Of a stretch of DNA of 33,784 nucleotides, positions 1,985 to 24,668 are shown in pieces. The notes beneath the pieces were generated by a model that did no database searches, was not told the DNA's origin, and was given only the letters and a program-made list of their open reading frames with translations. The DNA lies in NCBI GenBank assembly GCA_903900775.1, contig CAIUOD010000017.1:1-33784 (forward strand), read 5' to 3'. Each line of letters begins with the position of its first letter. The first letter of the stretch is position 1. The translations under genes and the position numbers were made by a program. The DNA comes from Candidatus Adlerbacteria bacterium. GTDB lineage: Bacteria > Patescibacteriota > Minisyncoccia > Phycocordibacterales > SBAW01.

Positions 1985-4900
1985 ATGAGTGAGCGTTATG
2001 ACCACAAAGCCATCGAGAAAAAGTGGCAGCAGCGTTGGCAAGAGTCGCAGATTTTTCGTGCACAAGAAGACCTGCCCGCCGGCAAGGCAGGCGCTTCAAA
2101 ACCCAAAACCTACGTGCTCGATATGTTCCCGTACCCTTCGGGCGAAGGACTCCATGTCGGCCATCCCAAAGGCTACATTGCGACCGATATCTACGCGCGC
2201 TTCAAGCGCATGCAGGGCCACTCGGTTTTACACCCAATGGGATGGGACGCCTTCGGTTTGCCTGCCGAAAATTATGCGATAAAAAATAAAATCCACCCGG
2301 CCGTGGCGGTCGAGAAGAATATCGCGAATTTTAAAGACCAGCTTGCGCATATCGGTTTCGACTATGACTGGAGCCGCGAGATAAAAACGACCGATCCGGC
2401 GTTCTATAAGTGGACGCAGTGGATATTTTTGCAGCTCTATAAAAAAGGTTTGGCATTTCAAAGCGACGAGCCGATCAACTGGTGTCCTTCGTGCAAAACG
2501 GGCCTGGCGAACGAAGATTTGAATGGCAATGTATGCGAACGTTGCGACACGGTTGTTGAGAAAAAGCGGTTGCCGCAGTGGGTGCTCAAAATCACCGACT
2601 ATGCCGACCGGATGCTCCACGATTTGGACCACTTGCAGTGGCCCGAACACATCAAAGAGGCCCAGCGCAACTGGATCGGCCGGTCAGAGGGTGCCGAGAT
2701 CGAGTTTATCGTGCCGCGCTTTAAAGAAATTCTGCTTGCCAGCAGCAATGAAAGCAAGCGCGCGCGCGCCGAAAAATTATTTAAAGCATCGGGCCTCGAT
2801 ATAAAAGTACATACGCCAAAATCACTTGGCCTGACTGAAATCGAAGCGGACGAGAACGGCACCCTGGCTGAAAATGCCGAAGCTAAGGCGCGCGCCTATT
2901 CAGGAAAGACAAGCCTGCCCGTGCTGGCAATTGATACCGGTTTTGCGATAGAGGGAGAGGATCTTGATCTCGCACGTCCCAAACGAAATGCTCTTGGCGG
3001 TATTGATGAGAACTCTTTATCTCAAGATGAGGTGGGTGAAAAAATGCTCAAGTTCTATCAGGGTATTGCAAAAAAACATGGCGGTAGGGTCCTTGCACAT
3101 TGGATTGATGCGCTCGCGCTCGTTTTGCCTGACGGTTCGGTAGAACGGGCAGAAGATTCCCGCGAAGTCATTCTTACTGACATTGTCCACGGCGAATTCG
3201 ACAAATTTTTCCCTGTTCGCTCTCTCTACATTTCAAAAACGACTGGTAAGCCAGTAAAAGAAGAAACACCCGAAGAAGAAATTAAAGAGCTTGAACCAAT
3301 GGCTTGGGCGCAAAATGAACTAGTAAGCCGGCCGATAAAAGTTTTCACCACGCGGCCGGACACTTTGTTTGGCGCGAGCTATATGGTGTTGGCGCCGGAG
3401 CATCCGTTCATCCCCGCGATGAAAGCGAGCATCGAAAATTGGGACGAAGTAATTGCCTACATCAGCGAAGCGTCTGCTAAAACCGAAATAGATCGCACCA
3501 AAGAAGGCAAAGAAAAGACAGGCGTCGAGTTGAGGGGGCTCAAAGCCATCAATCCGGCAAACAAAGAACAAATCCCGCTCTACGTTGCCGACTATGTGCT
3601 CGGCGGCTATGGCACCGGGGCCATCATGGCCGTGCCCGCCCACGACGAGCGCGACTTTGCTTTTGCCAAAAAATTTAATTTGCCGGTAAAGAAAGTAATC
3701 GACCAAACGAAATATCTCATTTTTGATTTTGACGGCGTGATTGGTGACACCCTCGAGAACGCCCTTCTTGCCAAGGTAAGAATGGGGTTTTGCCGGGATA
3801 GAGAGGATGCCTATCAAGAAATGCTTACTTATGCGAACAAAAAACCAGTACACATACGCAACCACACGCTCTCGCCTGAAGAATTGCAAAAAGAATACGA
3901 CTGGACAAGCCGTTTCGGCGAAGAGATGCGCAAACAAAAAATAAAACTATTTGATGGTTTTATAACCGAAATACGTAAACTTCGAAATACGAAGATTGCT
4001 GTTGTCTCAAGCGGTTCAAATCTTTATGTCAGGTCGGCTGTCGAGCAGGGGAAGCTCAGCCCGACCCATGTTTTGTGTTTTGAAGACAATCATTCAAAAG
4101 AAGAAAAAATTGAGCGCATCTGTAAAGATTGGGGTGTTTCTGTCAAAGACGTATATTATTTCACAGATACTAAAGCTGACGTTTTTGAACTGGAAAACTT
4201 TTTAAGCAAAGAGCGCATTTTCGGCTGTTCGTGGGGGTTTTTGGGTAAAGAAGCGCTCGAGTCAGTGCTCCCCAAAGAGCAGGTGCTAGAAAACTTCTCG
4301 GACATTCACCGAGTGTTTGAAAACTTGCACACAGATGCGGGTATGCTCGTGGAGTCAGGCTCTTTTGACGGCCTAAATTCTGAAGACGCGAAGAAAAAGA
4401 TCACCGAGTTTGTGGGTGGGAAGATGGCAACGACCTACAAGCTCAAAGATTGGGTTTTTAGTCGCCAACGCTACTGGGGCGAGCCGATACCGATCATCCA
4501 TTGCCCGGCGCATGGCGCGGTTGCCGTGCCCGAGGATCAACTGCCCGTGCTTTTGCCCGAGGTGGAGTTTTATGAGCCTTCCGGCACGGGAGAGTCGCCG
4601 CTGGCAAACATCACCGAGTGGGTGAACACCACCTGCCCCACCTGCGGCGGCCCCGCCAAGCGAGAGACCAACACCATGCCACAGTGGGCGGGCTCGTCGT
4701 GGTACTACCTGCGCTTCATGGACCCGCGCAACGACGCTGCTTTGGTTGGCAAAGATAAAGAAAAATATTGGGCGCCGGTGGATGTCTATGTCGGCGGCGA
4801 TCATGCGGTAAGGCACCTCATCTATGCGCGCTTTTGGCACAAATTCCTCTATGACATCGGCGTGGTCAGCACGGTCGAGCCGTTTGCGCGCCTCGAATTC

Positions 4901-5602
4901 CTCGGATTTATTTTGGCCGAGGATGGCAAGAAGATGAGCAAGCGCCTTGGGAATGTTATCAACCCGACCGAAGTGGTGGCCAACTATGGCGCGGATTCCT
5001 TCCGCATATACGAGATGTTCATGGGGCCGTTCGAGAATACCGTCGCGTGGAATACGGCTTCGATTGCGGGCACGACCCGTTTTATCGAGCGCGTATGGCG
5101 GCTCGCAGGAGAGCCTTTGAGCGAGCAACCGGCGACAGTAGAGCTCGAGGCAATACTTCATCAGACTGCGAAAAAAGTCGGCGAAGATATCGAGGCGTTT
5201 AAATTTAATACCGCGGTCGCGCAGATGATGACATGCCTCAACGCGATGGAGAAAGCGGAGGGGATTCGAGCAGGGCAGTGGAAGGCTTTCATCCGCCTGC
5301 TCGCGCCCTTCGCGCCGCACGTCGCAGAAGAGTTGTGGGAGCGGTTGGGCGAGCCGTATTCGGTGCATCAGGCGGCGTGGCCACAATTTGATGAATCTAA
5401 AATATCGTCCGGCACTATAAAGGTCGCTGTCCAAGTAAATGGCAAAGTGCGCGGCTCGATAGAGCTTGCCCAAGGCGACACCGAAGGAGAGGCTTTAGCG
5501 AAGGCTCGTGGCGCGCCCGGGGTGGCCAAGTGGCTGGTCGAAGGCCGCGAGGTTAAAGCGCTCTATGTGCCTGGTAAAATTATAAGTTTCGTGGTTCAAT
5601 GA
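1985..5602 (+). CDS. leuS: Leucyl-tRNA synthetase with two enzyme domains inserted in its CP1 editing region
   Basis: The protein charges tRNA-Leu with leucine. It has 1205 aa against about 800-880 for ordinary bacterial LeuRS. LeuRS landmarks run in order: HIGH-type motif GLHVGH (55-60), zinc knuckle CPSC...CERC (167-187), IGRSEGAEIEF (231-241), editing-domain TTRPDT (455-460) and GTGAIMAVPAHDERD (544-557), W.FSRQRYWGEPIP (823-835), a second CPTC cluster (884-887), SSWYYLRFMDP (904-913), KMSKR (983-987), and the C-terminal VQVNGKVRG and YVPGKI. Two foreign blocks interrupt the editing region at ~247-440 (HAM1/RdgB-like) and ~576-783 (HAD-like). Without them about 800 aa remain. There is also a short PAGKAG insert (31-36) made by a palindromic repeat. 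The frame is open throughout and synthetase motifs resume cleanly after each insert, so this is not a frameshift or assembly join by appearance. LeuRS identity is certain; activity of the inserts is inferred. Confidence 0.97.
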   Translation: MSERYDHKAIEKKWQQRWQESQIFRAQEDLPAGKAGASKPKTYVLDMFPYPSGEGLHVGHPKGYIATDIYARFKRMQGHSVLHPMGWDAFGLPAENYAIKNKIHPAVAVEKNIANFKDQLAHIGFDYDWSREIKTTDPAFYKWTQWIFLQLYKKGLAFQSDEPINWCPSCKTGLANEDLNGNVCERCDTVVEKKRLPQWVLKITDYADRMLHDLDHLQWPEHIKEAQRNWIGRSEGAEIEFIVPRFKEILLASSNESKRARAEKLFKASGLDIKVHTPKSLGLTEIEADENGTLAENAEAKARAYSGKTSLPVLAIDTGFAIEGEDLDLARPKRNALGGIDENSLSQDEVGEKMLKFYQGIAKKHGGRVLAHWIDALALVLPDGSVERAEDSREVILTDIVHGEFDKFFPVRSLYISKTTGKPVKEETPEEEIKELEPMAWAQNELVSRPIKVFTTRPDTLFGASYMVLAPEHPFIPAMKASIENWDEVIAYISEASAKTEIDRTKEGKEKTGVELRGLKAINPANKEQIPLYVADYVLGGYGTGAIMAVPAHDERDFAFAKKFNLPVKKVIDQTKYLIFDFDGVIGDTLENALLAKVRMGFCRDREDAYQEMLTYANKKPVHIRNHTLSPEELQKEYDWTSRFGEEMRKQKIKLFDGFITEIRKLRNTKIAVVSSGSNLYVRSAVEQGKLSPTHVLCFEDNHSKEEKIERICKDWGVSVKDVYYFTDTKADVFELENFLSKERIFGCSWGFLGKEALESVLPKEQVLENFSDIHRVFENLHTDAGMLVESGSFDGLNSEDAKKKITEFVGGKMATTYKLKDWVFSRQRYWGEPIPIIHCPAHGAVAVPEDQLPVLLPEVEFYEPSGTGESPLANITEWVNTTCPTCGGPAKRETNTMPQWAGSSWYYLRFMDPRNDAALVGKDKEKYWAPVDVYVGGDHAVRHLIYARFWHKFLYDIGVVSTVEPFARLEFLGFILAEDGKKMSKRLGNVINPTEVVANYGADSFRIYEMFMGPFENTVAWNTASIAGTTRFIERVWRLAGEPLSEQPATVELEAILHQTAKKVGEDIEAFKFNTAVAQMMTCLNAMEKAEGIRAGQWKAFIRLLAPFAPHVAEELWERLGEPYSVHQAAWPQFDESKISSGTIKVAVQVNGKVRGSIELAQGDTEGEALAKARGAPGVAKWLVEGREVKALYVPGKIISFVVQ
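2071..2091. repeat. Short palindromic repeat inserted in frame in leuS
   Basis: CCTGCC-N9-GGCAGG forms a hairpin and encodes the extra residues LPAGKAG in the N-terminal linker before the catalytic YVLDMFPYPSG block. A close copy sits near the 3' end of mnmA (11962-11977). Inference: a small dispersed palindromic element tolerated inside genes. Confidence 0.6.
2723..3304 (+). other. Inserted HAM1/RdgB-like NTP pyrophosphatase domain within LeuRS
   Basis: LeuRS residues ~247-440 read as a full-length (~190 aa) member of the Ham1/RdgB (ITPase) fold. The block starts ILLASSNESKRARAEKLF, matching the N-terminal nucleotide-binding (T/S)xNxxK motif. It continues LAENAEAKARAYS, matching the family's eNA..KA helix, then VLAIDTGFAIEG, corresponding to the catalytic D(D/T)SGL loop with the second Asp kept. 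A region like the PGxxSAR segment (ARPKRNALGG) and a strand-rich C-terminal half follow. Family members hydrolyse dITP/XTP to the monophosphate and pyrophosphate. The insertion point is the turn between EIEFIV and RPIKVFTTRPDT at the entry of the editing domain. The EETPEEEIKELE stretch looks like an exit linker. Divergent C-terminal motifs mean activity is uncertain. Confidence 0.8.
3710..4333 (+). other. Inserted HAD-superfamily hydrolase domain within LeuRS
   Basis: LeuRS residues ~576-783 show HAD signatures in order: motif I YLIFDFDGVIGDT with both Asp present, a helical cap region, motif II IAVVSSGSN, a lysine in EEKIERI at the motif III position, and motif IV YYFTDTKADVFELE. The ~208 aa length is that of a complete HAD phosphatase. 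It replaces the loop between NLPVKKVI and GMLVESGSFDGLNSEDA of the editing domain. Base composition differs from the surroundings: 4081-4140 is about 35% GC by hand count against about 67% for 4681-4740 in the LeuRS core. This fits a later acquisition. Substrate is unknown. Confidence 0.82.
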
Positions 5603-17665: not shown

Positions 17666-19570
17666 ATGACGCTCAACGAAATCCGTTCGCGCTATCTGGC
17701 ATTTTTTGAGGCACGCGGGCACGTGGTCATCCCGAGCTCTCCCTTGGTGCCGCAAAACGACCCGACGACGCTCTTCACCGGCTCGGGCATGCAGCCCTTG
17801 GTGCCGTATCTCTTGGGTAAAAATCATCCCGAAGGCACGCGCCTGGTCGACTCGCAAAAATGCTTCCGCTCCGGCGATATCGAGGAGGTCGGGGACAATC
17901 GCCACACGACTTTTTTTGAGATGTTCGGCAATTGGTCGCTCGGTGATTATTTTAAACAGGAGCAACTGCCGTGGTTTTTTGAATTCTTGACCGAAGAATT
18001 AGAGATTGACCCAAAGCGCCTTTACGTGACAGTCTTCGCTGGCGAACCGAAGTATGACATACCAAAAGATGACGAATCGGTCGCGATTTGGCAAACATTG
18101 TTTAGCAAACACGACATCGAAGCAGTTGCTGCCGAGATTGGTTCAGAAGCAAATGGATACCAGCGAGGCATGAAGCCCGGCGAGCGGATATTTTATTACG
18201 ATGCCAAGAAGAATTGGTGGAGCCGGTCGGGCACGCCCGAGCACATGCCAGCAGGAGAGCCGGGCGGGCCAGATTCAGAAGTATTTTTTGAATTCCCGGA
18301 GATTAAACATGACCCTAGGTGGGGCGAACATTGTCACCCCAACTGCGACTGCGGACATTTTGTCGAAATCGGCAATTCGGTCTTTATGCAGTATTTGAAA
18401 AAAGAAGACGGCACCTTTGGTCTCTTACCGAAACAGAATGTGGATTTTGGCGGGAGCCTCGAGCGCATAAACATGGCCGTGAGCGACAGTTCAGACGTGT
18501 TCACCATCAACCATGAGCCGATACTGCAGCTCATCGAACAGCTTTCGCATAAAACATATACCTCCAACAACTCGGCAGAGACGCGTGCATTCCGCATTAT
18601 TGCCGACCACATGAAAGGTGCCACCTTCCTCATCGCGAGCGGCGTGATGCCCTCGAATTCTGATAGAGGATACTTTGTGCGACGGCTGATACGCCGGAGC
18701 ATTATGCAGGCGGACAAACTGGGTATCTCTGAAAACTCTTTTTCTAAAGTTGTCGAGCCAATCGCGAAGATGTATGCAGAGCAATATCCTGATGTTCTCG
18801 CGCAGGCGGATTCAATAGCGCAGACGATCGAACAAGAGGAGACTCGCTTCAGACAAACCCTTTCCAGAGGCATCAAAGAGCTGGCTCGTTTCGCTGGCCA
18901 AGATAAGCTCTCTGCGCAGGACGCTTTTCAACTCTTCACGACCTACGGCTTCCCGTTGGAATTGATTATCGAAGAGGCCGGCGAGAAGGGCATTAAGCAG
19001 ATTGATATCGAAGGATTTAAGGAGTTACTGAAAGGCCACCAGGAACTTTCTCGCGCAGGAAGTGAGCAAAAATTCAAAGGCGGTTTGGCTGATGCGTCAC
19101 AGGAGACGACGCGTCTGCATACCGCACACCATCTTTTGCTCAAAGCGCTCCAGATGGTTTTGGGGCCAAGCGTCAAGCAACGCGGCAGTAACATCACGGG
19201 GGAGCGCCTGCGGATCGATTTCTCTTTTGGGCAGAAGATGACACCTGAGCAACTGGCCGAAGTGGAGCGTATCGTGAACGAAATAATCGAAGAGGATTTG
19301 CCGGTCATCCACAGCGAGATGGATAAAGAAGAGGCCGAGAAGCTCGGCGCCGAGCATGAGTTTGGCGCCAAGTATCCCGAACGCGTTTCTATCTACTCGG
19401 TTGGCCCTAAGGGCGCGACCCCCGAAAATCCGCAAATAGAAAAAGCCTTTTCGCTGGAATTCTGCGGCGGCCCGCATGTCGAGCACACCGGCGAACTTGG
19501 CCATTTTAAAATCGCAAAAGAAGAAGCAACCTCCGCCGGCATCCGCCGCATCCGGGCAGTGCTTGAGTAG
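17666..19570 (+). CDS. alaS: Alanyl-tRNA synthetase, reduced form lacking C-Ala and the beta-barrel
   Basis: AlaRS charges tRNA-Ala and clears Ser/Gly mischarging. The catalytic part is intact: RSRYLAFFEARGHVVIPSS, LFTGSGMQPLVPYL, RHTTFFEMFGNWSLGDYFK, FVEIGNSVFMQY, GGSLERINM, and tRNA-recognition helices with GYFVRRLIRRS. The editing domain keeps its zinc site: HTAHH (His485/His489) and CGGPH (Cys600/His604). At 634 aa the protein is about 240 aa shorter than E. coli AlaRS. The sequence jumps from EQKFKGGLADASQ directly into the editing domain, so the beta-barrel linker (with the FYAESGGQVGD motif) is absent, and it stops after AGIRRIRAVLE, so the C-Ala dimerisation/tRNA-elbow domain is absent. 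Weak GATACT box 9 nt upstream. Confidence 0.96.
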   Translation: MTLNEIRSRYLAFFEARGHVVIPSSPLVPQNDPTTLFTGSGMQPLVPYLLGKNHPEGTRLVDSQKCFRSGDIEEVGDNRHTTFFEMFGNWSLGDYFKQEQLPWFFEFLTEELEIDPKRLYVTVFAGEPKYDIPKDDESVAIWQTLFSKHDIEAVAAEIGSEANGYQRGMKPGERIFYYDAKKNWWSRSGTPEHMPAGEPGGPDSEVFFEFPEIKHDPRWGEHCHPNCDCGHFVEIGNSVFMQYLKKEDGTFGLLPKQNVDFGGSLERINMAVSDSSDVFTINHEPILQLIEQLSHKTYTSNNSAETRAFRIIADHMKGATFLIASGVMPSNSDRGYFVRRLIRRSIMQADKLGISENSFSKVVEPIAKMYAEQYPDVLAQADSIAQTIEQEETRFRQTLSRGIKELARFAGQDKLSAQDAFQLFTTYGFPLELIIEEAGEKGIKQIDIEGFKELLKGHQELSRAGSEQKFKGGLADASQETTRLHTAHHLLLKALQMVLGPSVKQRGSNITGERLRIDFSFGQKMTPEQLAEVERIVNEIIEEDLPVIHSEMDKEEAEKLGAEHEFGAKYPERVSIYSVGPKGATPENPQIEKAFSLEFCGGPHVEHTGELGHFKIAKEEATSAGIRRIRAVLE

Positions 19571-19574
19571 GGTA

Positions 19575-19580
19575 TATACT
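19575..19580 (+). promoter_or_regulatory. -10 box, leaderless gene
   Basis: TATACT ending 6 nt before the ATG at 19587. It begins 4 nt after the alaS stop. Confidence 0.58.
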
Positions 19581-19586
19581 GTTCTC

Positions 19587-20564
19587 ATGTCTGCGCTCTT
19601 CACTAAGAGCAAAAAAGGCGCCGAGGAAACGGTGCTCGTTGTTGATATTGAAAGCGGTAGTGTCGCCGCGGCATTGGTGGCGCTCTCGCCCGGCGAGCCG
19701 CCAAAACTTTTTGCCGAACATCGCGTGATGCTCCCCATGGCTAAATCTATCGATGCGGCAGTGCTCGCCAAACAGATTGAAAAAGCCGCGCGCGCGGCGA
19801 TCTCGGTGCCCTCTCTTTTTGCCGCGCGCCTGCGCAATGCACCCGGCGCCAAGCTCAAAACTAAAAATATGGGAGCAGTTACGCGCGCTTCAATCTTTTT
19901 TGCGCCGCCGTGGGTGGCGCTTGAGGCGCGGCATGGCGTGCTTGCCTGGTCGCGCGAGGACAGTCTAGCTTCGTCATTGCGTCAAGAAATTGACGCCGCT
20001 TTTGGTTCAATCCCCATTTCTGAATATGCTTTTGGCGAAGCGGCGGCTGGCACGCTCGCTTCACTCTTCGAACAGCCAGACGAAGTCCTGTTGTGCACCA
20101 TAACCGGCGAAATGGCCGAGCTCTTACGACTTTATAAAGGCGCGCCCCAAGGCCACGCGACTATCCCTGGCGGCTCGCGCTTGCTTTTGCGCACCCTTGG
20201 CACCCATGCGGGGTTGAGCACTCATGAAGCGCACTCCGCGCTCGCACTGTCTTTGCAAAGAGAACCTAGCTACCTGCGCGAGCCGCTCGCGGCATCAGCA
20301 CTCCACTTTTGCAGACAATTCGGCTCGGCCGCCGGTGCGATGGGCGCCGCAGGGCCGGTGCACGAGATTCTCATTCTTGCGCCCGAGCCCACGGGGGAGT
20401 GGTTTGCTCAAGCATTATCGCGCGCGCCGCTCTCTTCGCCCTTCGATAGCGAGAGCCGCGTTCGGGCCCTCCACACCCACCATCTTGCCCCGCATATCGC
20501 CTCGCACACGAGCAAACCCGACCTCACGCTCATGGTCGAAGGCATCTTTATGAGCGCGCTTTAA
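19587..20564 (+). CDS. Actin-fold-like (PilM/FtsA-type?) conserved CPR protein
   Basis: The start is ATG 19587, placed by the TATACT box 6 nt upstream; the track start at 19476 lies inside alaS. The 325-aa product begins ETVLVVDIESGSVAAALVAL, a strand-turn-strand that looks like phosphate-1 of actin/PilM-type ATPases. Later segments (ASIFFAPPWVALEARH, EVLLCTITGEMAELL, VHEILILAPEPTGEWF) are compatible with the second half of such a fold. No signal peptide or membrane segment. It sits immediately upstream of a membrane-anchored baseplate-J-like protein. The fold assignment is tentative; without it this is a conserved hypothetical. Confidence 0.5.
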   Translation: MSALFTKSKKGAEETVLVVDIESGSVAAALVALSPGEPPKLFAEHRVMLPMAKSIDAAVLAKQIEKAARAAISVPSLFAARLRNAPGAKLKTKNMGAVTRASIFFAPPWVALEARHGVLAWSREDSLASSLRQEIDAAFGSIPISEYAFGEAAAGTLASLFEQPDEVLLCTITGEMAELLRLYKGAPQGHATIPGGSRLLLRTLGTHAGLSTHEAHSALALSLQREPSYLREPLAASALHFCRQFGSAAGAMGAAGPVHEILILAPEPTGEWFAQALSRAPLSSPFDSESRVRALHTHHLAPHIASHTSKPDLTLMVEGIFMSAL

Positions 20565-20571
20565 GCGGGTG

Positions 20572-20577
20572 TATACT
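20572..20577 (+). promoter_or_regulatory. -10 box, leaderless gene
   Basis: TATACT, 7 nt before the ATG at 20585. Confidence 0.58.
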
Positions 20578-20584
20578 AGGTTTT

Positions 20585-21817
20585 ATGCAAGACATGACCC
20601 CACCCCACAGCTCTATTCGCGATATTCCCGTCTCTCCTAATCACCGCCACGTGCCCCCGCCCGATGAGCGCCCGCGATCGCGCTCCCCACGCCGTGGATG
20701 GTGGAAATGGGTCGCCGCCGTTGTCGTTGTGTGTGCGGTCGCCGGGCTTTTGCTCTCGACTATATTCCAAGGCGCAACCGTAACGCTCTATCCTAAGACG
20801 CAGAACGTCACCGGCCCGATTTCTTTGTCACTTTCTCCCAACTCGGGCGCGGGAGATGGATATCAAGTAGTGACCGTCCGTGCTTCGGCAACGACGACTG
20901 CTCCCGCTTCGGGGAGCAAGCAGGTCTCCGACGAAGCGACCGGCATCATCACCATTTATAACGGCTACAATACTTCTAATCAGGTGCTGGTGGCTAACAC
21001 GCGCTTCGCGGCCCCCGATGGGAAAATTTATCGCATTCACAGCCAGGTGACGGTGCCAGGGGCTACCGCACAGGCGGGCGGCACGCTCACGCCGGGCTCG
21101 GTGACCGCTTCGGTCTATGCCGACAAGCCAGGCGCCGACTATAACCGTGCCGATCCGACCACCTTTACCATACCGGGCTTCAAAGGGACGCCACGCTATG
21201 CCACATTTTCGGCTAAATCGCAGGGTGCGATAAACGGCGGCTTGGTGGGAACGGCGCCTGCTGTCTCGGCCACCGATTTGAGCGCCGCACAAGCGACTTT
21301 GAAGAGCCAGCTCGATGCCTCGCTGGCATCCCAAATGGCCGCGAATGTGCCGACAGGGTTTTTGGCGATTAGCGGGTCACTCGCGGCCACGTACGACAAT
21401 GTCTCGCAAACCGGCAGTGGTGCCACCGCACAGCTTGCCGAGAGTGCCTCGGCGACCGAAGCACTCGTCCGCGTGAGCGACTTAGCCGCCGCGGTGGCAG
21501 CACAATCAGTGCAGGGCTACAACAACGAAGCCATCGCTTTTGCCGACCCAACAAAAGTGACAGTCAGCTCTTCGGGCTCCGGCGCCTTGGGGCCTTTGCC
21601 GGTTACGATTGGCGGTTCGCTTAATCTGGTGTGGCAATTCGATTCTGGGGCTATAAAGCAGGCTTTGGCGGGTAAAAGCCGGTCGTCCTTCGAGCAAATC
21701 ATCGCCGGCTTCGAGCCTGCCGTGAGCTCGGCAAAAGCGACCATTCGACCGCTTTGGAAGGCGACCTTCCCCGAAAATCCTGACCAAATCACCATCACCA
21801 TATCTTCAGGCGAGTAA
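20585..21817 (+). CDS. Membrane-anchored baseplate J/gp47-like protein
   Basis: The 410-aa protein has a Pro/Arg-rich cytoplasmic N-terminus (~1-40), one transmembrane helix (WVAAVVVVCAVAGLLLSTIF, ~42-62), and a large beta-rich exterior domain. The stretch GIITIYNGYNTSNQVLVANTRF followed by DGKIYRIHSQVTVPGAT and KPGADYN is the pattern of baseplate-J-like proteins widespread in CPR genomes; it echoes the contact region of phage baseplate J proteins. No other tail or baseplate genes are nearby. It probably forms an envelope or surface assembly with the upstream actin-fold-like protein. The phage link is by sequence pattern only. Confidence 0.68.
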   Translation: MQDMTPPHSSIRDIPVSPNHRHVPPPDERPRSRSPRRGWWKWVAAVVVVCAVAGLLLSTIFQGATVTLYPKTQNVTGPISLSLSPNSGAGDGYQVVTVRASATTTAPASGSKQVSDEATGIITIYNGYNTSNQVLVANTRFAAPDGKIYRIHSQVTVPGATAQAGGTLTPGSVTASVYADKPGADYNRADPTTFTIPGFKGTPRYATFSAKSQGAINGGLVGTAPAVSATDLSAAQATLKSQLDASLASQMAANVPTGFLAISGSLAATYDNVSQTGSGATAQLAESASATEALVRVSDLAAAVAAQSVQGYNNEAIAFADPTKVTVSSSGSGALGPLPVTIGGSLNLVWQFDSGAIKQALAGKSRSSFEQIIAGFEPAVSSAKATIRPLWKATFPENPDQITITISSGE

Positions 21818-21862: not shown

Positions 21863-21880
21863 TGCATTCGTCCCCGTTTG

Positions 21881-22090
21881 ATGAAAGACACGACACCAGA
21901 AGTCCAGGGTACCGTCGAAGAGGCGATCCCGAATACGTTGTTCCGCGTCTCTCTCCCCGAGGGAGAAGTGGTATTGGCATATCTAGCGGGCAAGATGCGG
22001 CTCCACCACATCAAAGTGCTCGTTGGGGACAAAGTACTCGTGCGGCTCGACCCGTACGGCGGTAAGGCTCGAATCACTCGGCGACTCTAA
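21881..22090 (+). CDS. infA: Translation initiation factor IF-1
   Basis: The 69-aa product is a single S1/OB-fold domain: [21 protein letters not shown], then [21 protein letters not shown], ending [15 protein letters not shown]-1 occupies the A site of the 30S subunit during initiation. ATG 21881 is used; the track's TTG at 21878 adds one residue and is unnecessary. It is the first gene of the ribosomal cluster, with rpmJ 2 nt downstream, a conserved order. Confidence 0.96.
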
Positions 22091-22092
22091 TA

Positions 22093-22215: not shown

Positions 22216-22593
22216 ATGAGAATTTCAGGTATTACTATTCCCAATAAACGACTTTCATACGCGCTCACCGCGCTCTATGGCATAGGTATGCCGCGCGCGC
22301 AGAGCATCTGCAAGAAGGCGGGTGTCGATGCGACCAAGCGCGCCGACACGCTCACCGCCGATGAAGAGAGCGCCATCCGCACCGCACTCGAGGGCCTCAA
22401 AATCGAGGGTGATCTCAAACGCGAAGTATCAGGAAACATTAAGCGCCTCAAAGACATTGGTTCGTATCGCGGCACTCGCCACAGCAAACGCCTCCCGTCT
22501 CGCGGACAGCGGACCAAGACCAATTCTCGCACCGTCAGGGGCAACGTGCGCAAGACGATGGGCTCCGGTCGGCGTAAAGTTGAGAAAACCTAG
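22216..22593 (+). CDS. rpsM: Ribosomal protein S13
   Basis: The 125-aa protein has the S13 N-terminus MRISGITIPNKRLSYALTAL, YGIGMPRA, and the helix-hairpin-helix IKRLKDIGSYRGTRHSKRLP leading to the basic tail RGQRTKTNSRTVRG. It contacts the head of the 30S subunit and the P-site tRNA. The tail is slightly longer than usual (ends GSGRRKVEKT). Confidence 0.97.
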   Translation: MRISGITIPNKRLSYALTALYGIGMPRAQSICKKAGVDATKRADTLTADEESAIRTALEGLKIEGDLKREVSGNIKRLKDIGSYRGTRHSKRLPSRGQRTKTNSRTVRGNVRKTMGSGRRKVEKT

Positions 22594-22605
22594 TCCCTGT
22601 GCTAT

Positions 22606-22611
22606 TATAAT
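22606..22611 (+). promoter_or_regulatory. Internal -10 box before rpsK
   Basis: TATAAT, 11 nt before the rpsK ATG. It suggests an internal start site within the ribosomal operon. Confidence 0.5.
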
Positions 22612-22622
22612 CAGACACACCT

Positions 22623-23051
22623 ATGGGTAAGAAAAGAATAGTCAAAAAAGGAGGGGAGGAGGGGGCCGGTGGCCGCGGGTCCTCGGCGCGCGCTAACAAG
22701 CGCAAGCTCGATGTTGGGGTACTCCGCGTCGAAGCGACCTACAACAATACCAAAGTCTGCCTCACCGATGAGAAGGGCGGCGTCGTCGCCTGGTCGTCGA
22801 GTGGCTCGCTCGGTTTCTCGGGCGCTAAAAAGGGTACCCCGTTTGCCGCGGCCAAGGTAGGCGAGCTTCTGGGCGACCGCGCAACGGCAATGGGCATGAA
22901 GGAGGTCTCGGTGGTCGTCTCCGGGGTTGGTTCCGGCCGCGAATCCTCGATCCGCGCATTCTCGACCAAAGGCATCCATATTACCGGTATTAAAGACGTG
23001 ACGCCGGTGCCGCACAACGGCCCGCGCCCGCCAAAGCCGCGCCGCGTATAA
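22623..23051 (+). CDS. rpsK: Ribosomal protein S11
   Basis: The 142-aa protein carries RVEATYNNTKVCLTDEKGGV, SSGSLGFSGAKKGTPFAA, VVVSGVGSGRESSIRAF and the invariant C-terminal ITGIKDVTPVPHNGPRPPKPRRV pattern. It forms part of the 30S platform. The N-terminal extension is Gly/Lys-rich (KKGGEEGAGGRGSS), a little longer than in most bacteria. Confidence 0.97.
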   Translation: MGKKRIVKKGGEEGAGGRGSSARANKRKLDVGVLRVEATYNNTKVCLTDEKGGVVAWSSSGSLGFSGAKKGTPFAAAKVGELLGDRATAMGMKEVSVVVSGVGSGRESSIRAFSTKGIHITGIKDVTPVPHNGPRPPKPRRV

Positions 23052-23078
23052 CCCCACTTTCGCAATCATAAAAATCAT

Positions 23079-23690
23079 ATGCTTCTCGGACCAAAATATA
23101 AAATCTGCAAACGTCTCGGCGCCTCGGTATTTGAAAAATGCCAGACCAAGAAATTCCAGCTCGCCGAAGCGCGTGCTCCTCGCCGTACCCGCCCGAAGCG
23201 CGGCGGTGGTGGCGACTACGGCGCCCAGTTGCTCGAGAAGCAGAAGGCTCGTCTCACCTACGGCATGGGCGAGACGCAATTTGCGCGCTACGTACACGAG
23301 GCGATGGAACAGCATCGCGTCCCGAGCTCTGAAAACCTTCTCTCGCGCCTCGAGTCGCGCCTCGACAACACGGTCTACCGCGCTGGTTTTGTCAGCACCC
23401 GTCGCGCCGCGCGCCAGATGGTTTCGCACGGCCACATTTTTGTTAACGGTCGCCGCATGAACATTCCTTCGCACTGTGTGAAAGAAGGCGACGTGGTTAG
23501 TGTCCGTCCCGAGAGCCGCGAGAGCGCGCTCTTTACCGGCCGCAGCGAGGCGGCCCTTGAGACGAAGACCCCGGTGTGGCTCAAAAGCGAAGACGGCGGT
23601 TTTGCCGTCGCCGTCGCCTCCGCGCCTGGTGTCGGACAAAGTGAAGCGCCGTTTAGTGCGCCGATCATTATCCAATTCTATAGCCGTTAA
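23079..23690 (+). CDS. rpsD: Ribosomal protein S4
   Basis: The 203-aa protein has the LLGPKYKICKRLG N-terminus, the QLLEKQKARLTYGMGETQFARY core, and the S4 RNA-binding domain (LESRLDNTVYRAGF, ARQMVSHGHIFVNGRR). S4 nucleates 30S assembly and in many bacteria represses this operon. The N-terminal zinc-knuckle cysteines of some S4 proteins are not present in full (Cys residues only in KICKRLG and KCQTKK). Confidence 0.97.
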   Translation: MLLGPKYKICKRLGASVFEKCQTKKFQLAEARAPRRTRPKRGGGGDYGAQLLEKQKARLTYGMGETQFARYVHEAMEQHRVPSSENLLSRLESRLDNTVYRAGFVSTRRAARQMVSHGHIFVNGRRMNIPSHCVKEGDVVSVRPESRESALFTGRSEAALETKTPVWLKSEDGGFAVAVASAPGVGQSEAPFSAPIIIQFYSR

Positions 23691-23717
23691 TAATTTTATT
23701 CGCCCTAGTCAATTATC

Positions 23718-24668
23718 ATGATTGAATATTCTATAACTTTGCCGAGCAAGCCGCGCATTGTTTCCGAAGAGGAAAGTGCGGGAGTCTACGAAATAGACGG
23801 GCTCTATCCCGGCTATGGCCACACGCTCGGGAATTCCTTGCGCCGGATTATTCTCTCATCGCTCCCGGGAGCGGCTATTACTTCGGTTAAGATCGAAGGC
23901 GTCGAGCATGAATTTTCTACCATCGACGGCTTGCGCGAGGATGTCATCACGCTCTTGCTCAATTTGAAAAAACTCCGTTTTGAACTAGTCACCAGCGAGC
24001 CGCAAGTGGTGTCGCTCTCGGTCAAAGGCCCGATGAAGGTCTCGGGCGCCGATTTGAATTTGCCCGGCCAGGTCCGCCTCCTGAACTCCAACTCGTATTT
24101 GTGCGAATTGACCCAGAAGAACAGCGCGCTCAATTTAGAACTCCGTGTCGAGCGCGGTTTGGGTTATGTCCCGCGCGAGGCGCTCAAAAAAGACCGCGCC
24201 GAGATAGGGGAGATCCCGGTGGATGCCATTTTCTCGCCTATTCGCCGCGTGAACTATGAGGTAGAGAATATGCGCGTCGGCGATCGGACGGATTTCAACC
24301 GCCTGCGTATCACTATCGAGACCGACGGCACGCTCTCGCCGCGCGCGGCACTCGAGCAGTCGGTAGAGGTCATGATCACCCAACTCAAAGCCATCATCGG
24401 TTTTAGAGAAGAGGAGATCGTGAGCGCCTCTAGCACAGCACCCGAGCCCCTAGCGGCCGAAACCTCGACCGATGTCATGAAGACCCGCATCGAGGATCTC
24501 GAGCTCTCTGCACGCGCGGTCTCGGCGCTTGAGCGTGCTGGCATCCGCACCATCGGCGGCCTCGCACGCAAAAAAGAAACCGATTTAACGGATATCGAAG
24601 GCCTCGGCCCCAAAGCTATCCAGGAGATTAAACGCGCTTTGGCGAACTTCGGCATCGTCCTTAAATAA
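23718..24668 (+). CDS. rpoA: RNA polymerase subunit alpha
   Basis: The 316-aa protein has an N-terminal dimerisation domain with YPGYGHTLGNSLRRIILSSLPG and VKIEGVEHEFSTIDGLREDV, then VNYEVENMRVG. The C-terminal domain that binds UP elements and activators follows a linker of Thr/Ala/Ser and reads LELSARAVSALERAGIRTIGGLA...LTDIEGLGPKAIQEIKRAL. Standard length and position between rpsD and rplQ. Confidence 0.98.
   Translation: MIEYSITLPSKPRIVSEEESAGVYEIDGLYPGYGHTLGNSLRRIILSSLPGAAITSVKIEGVEHEFSTIDGLREDVITLLLNLKKLRFELVTSEPQVVSLSVKGPMKVSGADLNLPGQVRLLNSNSYLCELTQKNSALNLELRVERGLGYVPREALKKDRAEIGEIPVDAIFSPIRRVNYEVENMRVGDRTDFNRLRITIETDGTLSPRAALEQSVEVMITQLKAIIGFREEEIVSASSTAPEPLAAETSTDVMKTRIEDLELSARAVSALERAGIRTIGGLARKKETDLTDIEGLGPKAIQEIKRALANFGIVLK

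Follow-up and report, generated by a model that had tools for sequence, protein, structure and literature searches.

FtsN of the divisome and PilN of the type IV pilus platform, both bitopic, bind the IA-IC cleft of the actin-like proteins FtsA and PilM via short cytoplasmic tails (PMC7613929). A related arrangement is that of GspL in type II secretion, where an actin-like cytoplasmic domain is fused to one transmembrane helix and an exterior. The gene pair described here, from a bacterium of the candidate phyla radiation (CPR), forms a genuine, conserved module of two proteins, for which no function has been described, and is kin to the known actin-plus-bitopic pairs. Neither Pfam nor NCBIfam names the module, and no description was found in the literature searched, where no paper joined 'candidate phyla radiation' with 'baseplate J'. 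The pair goes unmentioned in the accessible sections of two papers, one on Tn-seq in S. epibionticum (PMC10633639) and the other on the TM7x pilus (PMC12206443). It may be among the 106 CPR-enriched families of Meheust et al. 2019, which that report, in its accessible part, describes as mostly unannotated and in many cases membrane-bound (PMC6744442).

Position, promoters and conservation of the gene pair

The window that we analysed is a whole contig of 33784 bp from a 0.76-Mb genome, whose close relatives are mostly Candidatus Adlerbacteria, with some Nomurabacteria or other Parcubacteria. It carries the gene for the actin-like protein P0001 (325 aa; 19587..20564, + strand) followed by that for the bitopic membrane protein P0002 (410 aa; 20585..21817, + strand), and both ORFs lie exactly where an earlier, sequence-only reading of this DNA had placed them. 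The former was assigned to the FtsA/PilM superfamily by its AlphaFold2 (AF2) fold, Foldseek, alignments and its own clade in a tree; the latter was recognised as a bitopic membrane protein from its sequence, its relatives and its AF2 model. The pair is flanked upstream by alaS (17666..19570, +; Pfam and synteny), a conserved neighbour, and downstream by infA-rpmJ-rpsM-rpsK-rpsD-rpoA. This cluster starts with the infA-type ORF (21880..22092, +), which served as a query and was found at the same place in L216 and L218, and its conserved stretch of rpsM, rpsK, rpsD and rpoA (22216..24668, +) was recognised by synteny and by Pfam matches for S13, S4 and rpoA. The remaining window genes scanned were mostly housekeeping genes (Pfam) with no phage tail genes among them, as the sequence-only reading had also noted. 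No division or wall genes were seen adjoining the pair (Pfam, synteny) and no pilus genes beside P0001, whose neighbours are alaS and ribosomal genes. Elsewhere in the window, a leucyl-tRNA synthetase-like ORF of 1205 aa (1985-5602) contains, amid synthetase parts, a HAD hydrolase domain (578-733) and a Ham1-like stretch (249-323; both Pfam).

Each gene had been proposed to have its own leaderless promoter. Indeed, the -10 element TATACT precedes the ATG by 6 nt in the actin-like gene (19575..19580, +) and by 7 nt in the bitopic gene (20572..20577, +). Among relatives, TANNNT stands 5-8 nt before the ATG of 69/86 actin genes and of 39/83 bitopic genes, compared with a background of 6.7% of all ATGs in the DNA of the same loci, and Shine-Dalgarno-like sites occur at 1/86 and 1/83 of these starts, respectively. 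By these sequence signals, both genes look leaderless.

The sequence-only reading had staked its proposal on an actin-like fold of the upstream protein and on conservation of the pair, including its order in CPR genomes, and both were found. Within the window's family, relatives of P0001 are present in 40/41 genomes and relatives of P0002 in 39/41. Across the 118 genomes of the order the numbers are 98 and 112, and at least five of the order genomes without an actin match hold a diverged actin in the slot. In 32 loci from named relatives, the actin and bitopic genes are adjacent. For the phylum, we relied on 60 loci of the bitopic family that were hand-picked from the better matches and thus do not sample the phylum without bias. 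The actin lies immediately upstream, in the same orientation, in 37 of them (within 160 nt in 33 cases), and the rest comprise 11 loci of a second clade, 2 fusions and 10 loci without a recognised actin. Same-strand adjacency applies to all 37 sampled loci in which both genes were recognised, and distant CPR classes again show the order alaS-actin-bitopic. The overall phylum matches of the actin profile (319/380, where FtsA and PilM can cross-match) and of the bitopic profile (355/380, which include an actin-less clade) were left out as pair counts. Ten of the 49 loci of the first clade (type I, see below) lack a recognised actin, and in L248 and L263 no gene separates alaS from the bitopic gene. 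In L243, L245, L246, L247 and L257, the actin slot is occupied by ORFs of 314-430 aa (376-430 aa in the first four) that the actin profile did not recognise and that are perhaps strongly diverged actins; alaS near these ORFs is represented by only a fragment in L243 and was not seen in L245.

Ribosomal-protein neighbourhoods are stable, and such a neighbourhood might keep two core genes adjacent without any functional link, a reading with which the separate leaderless promoters would agree. We consider chance neighbourhood very improbable, given that the pair also stays adjacent in loci where ribosomal genes went unrecognised, that one CPR family has fused the two proteins and that the actin is restricted to the clade with a cytoplasmic part (both discussed below). 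The distance correlation of the pair was the highest of 21 gene pairs, even though only just so (partial 0.49, compared with 0.47 for S4-rpoA), and is only suggestive of a link.

The actin-like protein beside FtsA and PilM

P0001 had no match in single-sequence Pfam and NCBIfam searches, and the family was therefore reached via profiles and fold. When its AF2 model, built with 37 family members (pLDDT 92.3, pTM 0.91), was compared with the PDB using Foldseek, the best match was PilM (5eox, E 3e-15), then FtsA (1.7e-11), followed by ParM and further members of the actin superfamily. By sequence, a profile built from 48 relatives across the order likewise matched PilM (3jc8, E 6e-7) and FtsA (1e4f, 1.8e-4) in the PDB. 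The model confidently predicts an actin-like fold of the FtsA/PilM superfamily for P0001, as had been supposed from the sequence.

The window's genus carries a reduced version of this protein. Relatives in other genera and families are about 400 aa long, compared with about 310-350 aa in the window's genus, and P0001 lacks positions 114-189 of the A3 profile, about 75 aa, which the order relatives of about 400 aa retain in the alignment. From known FtsA anatomy, we take these positions to be the place of subdomain 1C. The presence of 1C in place of 1B is a trait of the FtsA/PilM superfamily that P0001 does not display. The nucleotide site is altered as well. Distant-class members carry the canonical motifs DIGTEFVK and IFIDIGGGTTD; P0001 has kept D20 of the phosphate-1 motif, and TITGEMAE replaces its phosphate-2 motif. 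All aligned members of the window's genus share the first aspartate, and none has the phosphate-2 aspartate. Since both the 1C region and this aspartate are missing, the actin of the window's genus is probably nucleotide-dead as judged from the alignment, and nucleotide binding appears doubtful for P0001, though not for the whole family.

The sequence-only reading had suggested a possible PilM-type partner, of which the actin fold and the relation to PilM (and FtsA) hold, but not the identity with PilM. Distant relatives match the FtsA model TIGR01174 with E-values down to 4e-31; the best relative scanned reached 108 bits, below the curated cut-off of 175.85 bits, and P0001 itself had no match. 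The same relatives are PilM-like at about 1e-9, with at most 37 bits against the cut-off of 133 bits for TIGR01175, and some exceed the 27-bit cut-off of PF11104 (PilM), for which P0001 again had no match. In a quick tree of 81 proteins, in which some branches are long, the new family (35 proteins), FtsA (29) and PilM (15) each fell on one side of a branch, with SH-aLRT values of 99, 99 and 100, respectively. P0001 as a PilM is ruled out by these separate clades (99 and 100) together with the cut-offs. Moreover, FtsA was found at another place in 38/38 CPR genomes checked, above the cut-off in 36, and the source genome has its own FtsA on contig C37 and its best PilM_2 match on contig C27. The new family is a third FtsA/PilM-type actin in CPR, with a dedicated bitopic partner.

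Alternatively, the actin could be an FtsA paralogue and the bitopic protein its FtsN-like partner, acting as divisome or elongation accessories in wall synthesis or constriction and not as part of a filament machine. The two systems share their superfamily; the distant members are closest to FtsA by sequence, even though they stay below its cut-off, hhalign aligned the new family with FtsA at E 3e-34 compared with 1e-28 for PilM, and the basic cytoplasmic tail of the partner recalls FtsN (PMC7613929). We nonetheless judge this reading unlikely. The same genomes hold a separate, canonical FtsA, the predicted structure of P0001 is nearer to PilM, division and wall genes do not adjoin the pair, and no wall-binding domain was matched by Pfam in the bitopic exterior.

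Tail, exterior, clades and fusion of the bitopic protein

P0002 starts with a cytoplasmic tail (residues 1-36; 20585..20692, +) for which alignments A2 and A4 show the motif MQDM..(R)SIR(N/D)IPV and an Arg-rich stretch; in much of the order, the motif takes the form (Q)D(I/V/M)-PP..(K/R)RSIR(N/D/R)IP(V/L). This tail is the putative docking site for the actin. It is followed by a single transmembrane helix (residues 37-60; 20693..20764, +), recognised as a helix in the AF2 model (pLDDT 87.6, pTM 0.68) and by its hydrophobic sequence, and by an exterior that is mostly beta, in agreement with the single-pass topology proposed earlier. Residues 118-204 (20936..21196, +) correspond to a beta-barrel of the GlxA/baseplate-J type. 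PF21110 (GlxA barrel) matches this region at E 1.7e-5, just below the cut-off, and was matched in 32/34 relatives, while Foldseek retrieved GlxA at 1e-7 over about 140-150 columns and baseplate proteins at 1e-5 to 1e-3. Baseplate_J (PF04865) had no match in P0002 and was found in 3/34 relatives at E <= 0.1. The description of the exterior as phage-baseplate-like is therefore accurate for one shared barrel domain, yet P0002 is not a baseplate protein: it is anchored by a transmembrane helix, and TM-scores against GlxA and baseplate structures are about 0.2 over the whole protein. It further differs from phage baseplate J/gp47 in having no other tail genes around it and no relatives found in viral contigs by a narrow peptide-pattern scan. 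A phage origin of the bitopic protein is likewise unsupported, with P0002 lacking a PHROG match and some relatives showing weak baseplate matches.

The same exterior had led to the proposal of a surface or host-contact apparatus, in which an adhesin or contact device would be anchored by the actin inside the cell. The large, beta-rich exterior on a bitopic anchor, the barrel common to phage baseplate proteins and the spread of the pair among bacteria presumed to live on other cells are all consistent with such a role. Host-specific adhesins are, however, usually more variable than the bitopic protein, whose sequences in the genus share 42-56% identity, a fairly good degree of conservation. Together with the occurrence of the shared barrel in an enzyme, GlxA, and the position of the genes within a core translation cluster, this makes a host-contact device improbable in our view.

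A tree of 88 bitopic proteins separated type I (59) from type II (29) with an SH-aLRT of 100. Type I proteins have a cytoplasmic tail or an extra N-terminal domain and mostly an alaS context, whereas type II proteins have almost no cytoplasmic part. No actin was seen beside type II in the loci examined. The actin thus occurs only beside type I, the clade with an intracellular part available for binding. The extra N-terminal domain of about 100 aa ('YLESDEEITSVIDKI...ALVIPRGGNLAQSIVNLKLLKK') precedes the linker and transmembrane helix in L258, L285, L303 and the majority of type I proteins from distant classes, and had no Pfam match in the two that were scanned (L258, L285).

Type II genes are located between dnaE and thrS, or after genes for a PilB/GspE-type ATPase and a polytopic membrane protein. 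The latter arrangement was seen in several CPR families (L275, L305, L306, L379, L380, L382, L383, L384, L387). The polytopic protein has no Pfam match, and thrS often adjoins. Type II proteins, the ATPase and the polytopic protein may together belong to a pilus- or secretion-like machine not described so far, and this neighbourhood is the only hint that the bitopic family belongs to a pilus/secretion-type platform. Near the type II locus of L306, an ORF (L306:1752-3083) carries a Cas_csx3 domain (E 2e-15).

A search with a 764-aa protein matched 37/41 genomes of one CPR family, mostly with one ORF of about 720-830 aa, in which an N-terminal domain is followed by a transmembrane helix and the bitopic exterior. 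A first comparison of the N-terminal domain with the order-level profile gave an hhalign Prob of 5.6; the question was settled using broader alignments with FtsA and PilM as controls. In a single comparison, the domain aligned with the new actin family over its whole length (Prob 98.2, E 3e-14), compared with Prob 12.4 and 4.4 for CPR FtsA and PilM alignments, respectively. In the hhalign alignment, it lacks the 1C region and the nucleotide motifs. The fusion is the strongest indirect evidence, from sequence comparison, that both proteins work jointly. It resembles GspL in having an actin-like cytoplasmic domain fused to one transmembrane helix and an exterior, and differs from it in the GlxA/baseplate-J barrel of that exterior and in the loss of the nucleotide motifs.

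A putative envelope module of CPR bacteria

Given the adjacency, the clade restriction and the fusion, we are highly confident that the two proteins act together. That they do so in a PilM-PilN-like manner, as an envelope scaffold, is a reading we favour slightly. Both genes would then form one envelope module of CPR bacteria, in which the cytoplasmic third-family actin binds the intracellular portion of its bitopic partner, so that the large beta-rich exterior is clustered or positioned outside the membrane. PilM and PilN in the type IV pilus platform would serve as the model, as would FtsA holding FtsN in the divisome, and the machine would be pilus- or secretion-platform-like rather than divisome-like. 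The module takes different forms among lineages. Distant CPR classes combine an actin that has its nucleotide motifs with a partner that bears an added N-terminal domain, and within the window's order the partner has a short tail that is conserved. The actin of the window's genus is probably a nucleotide-independent adaptor, and one CPR family joins both proteins in a GspL-like arrangement.

The comparison with PilM-PilN has clear limits. Both systems pair a cytoplasmic actin-fold protein with a bitopic partner that carries a short conserved cytoplasmic tail, and PilM is the best structural match of P0001. The new actin, however, forms a clade apart from CPR PilM, no pilus genes were seen alongside it, and the exterior of its partner has a GlxA/baseplate-J barrel. 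Because 1C is missing, the cleft known from PilN and FtsN binding is impossible in its usual form in the window's genus. The link to pili is drawn solely from type II, the sister clade, and there only from some lineages. In addition, some type I loci without a recognised actin (L254, L293) have retained the DI-PP portion of the tail motif, which suggests that the partner can work alone and that the motif may serve something else.

Cultivated and genetically tractable Patescibacteria are described in the Tn-seq study (PMC10633639), and the module would be open to testing in them if a strain carries the pair. A bolder reading, which we regard as a long shot, is that much of CPR has its own actin-based envelope machine, in which a third FtsA/PilM-type actin, ATP-driven in most classes, organises a barrel-bearing surface protein for host-cell contact. 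CPR bacteria have few genes to spare, and conservation of the pair across much of this gene-poor group suggests a core envelope function. Beside the actin-bitopic pairs of pili and division, the module would be a third case, and one with a natural fusion.
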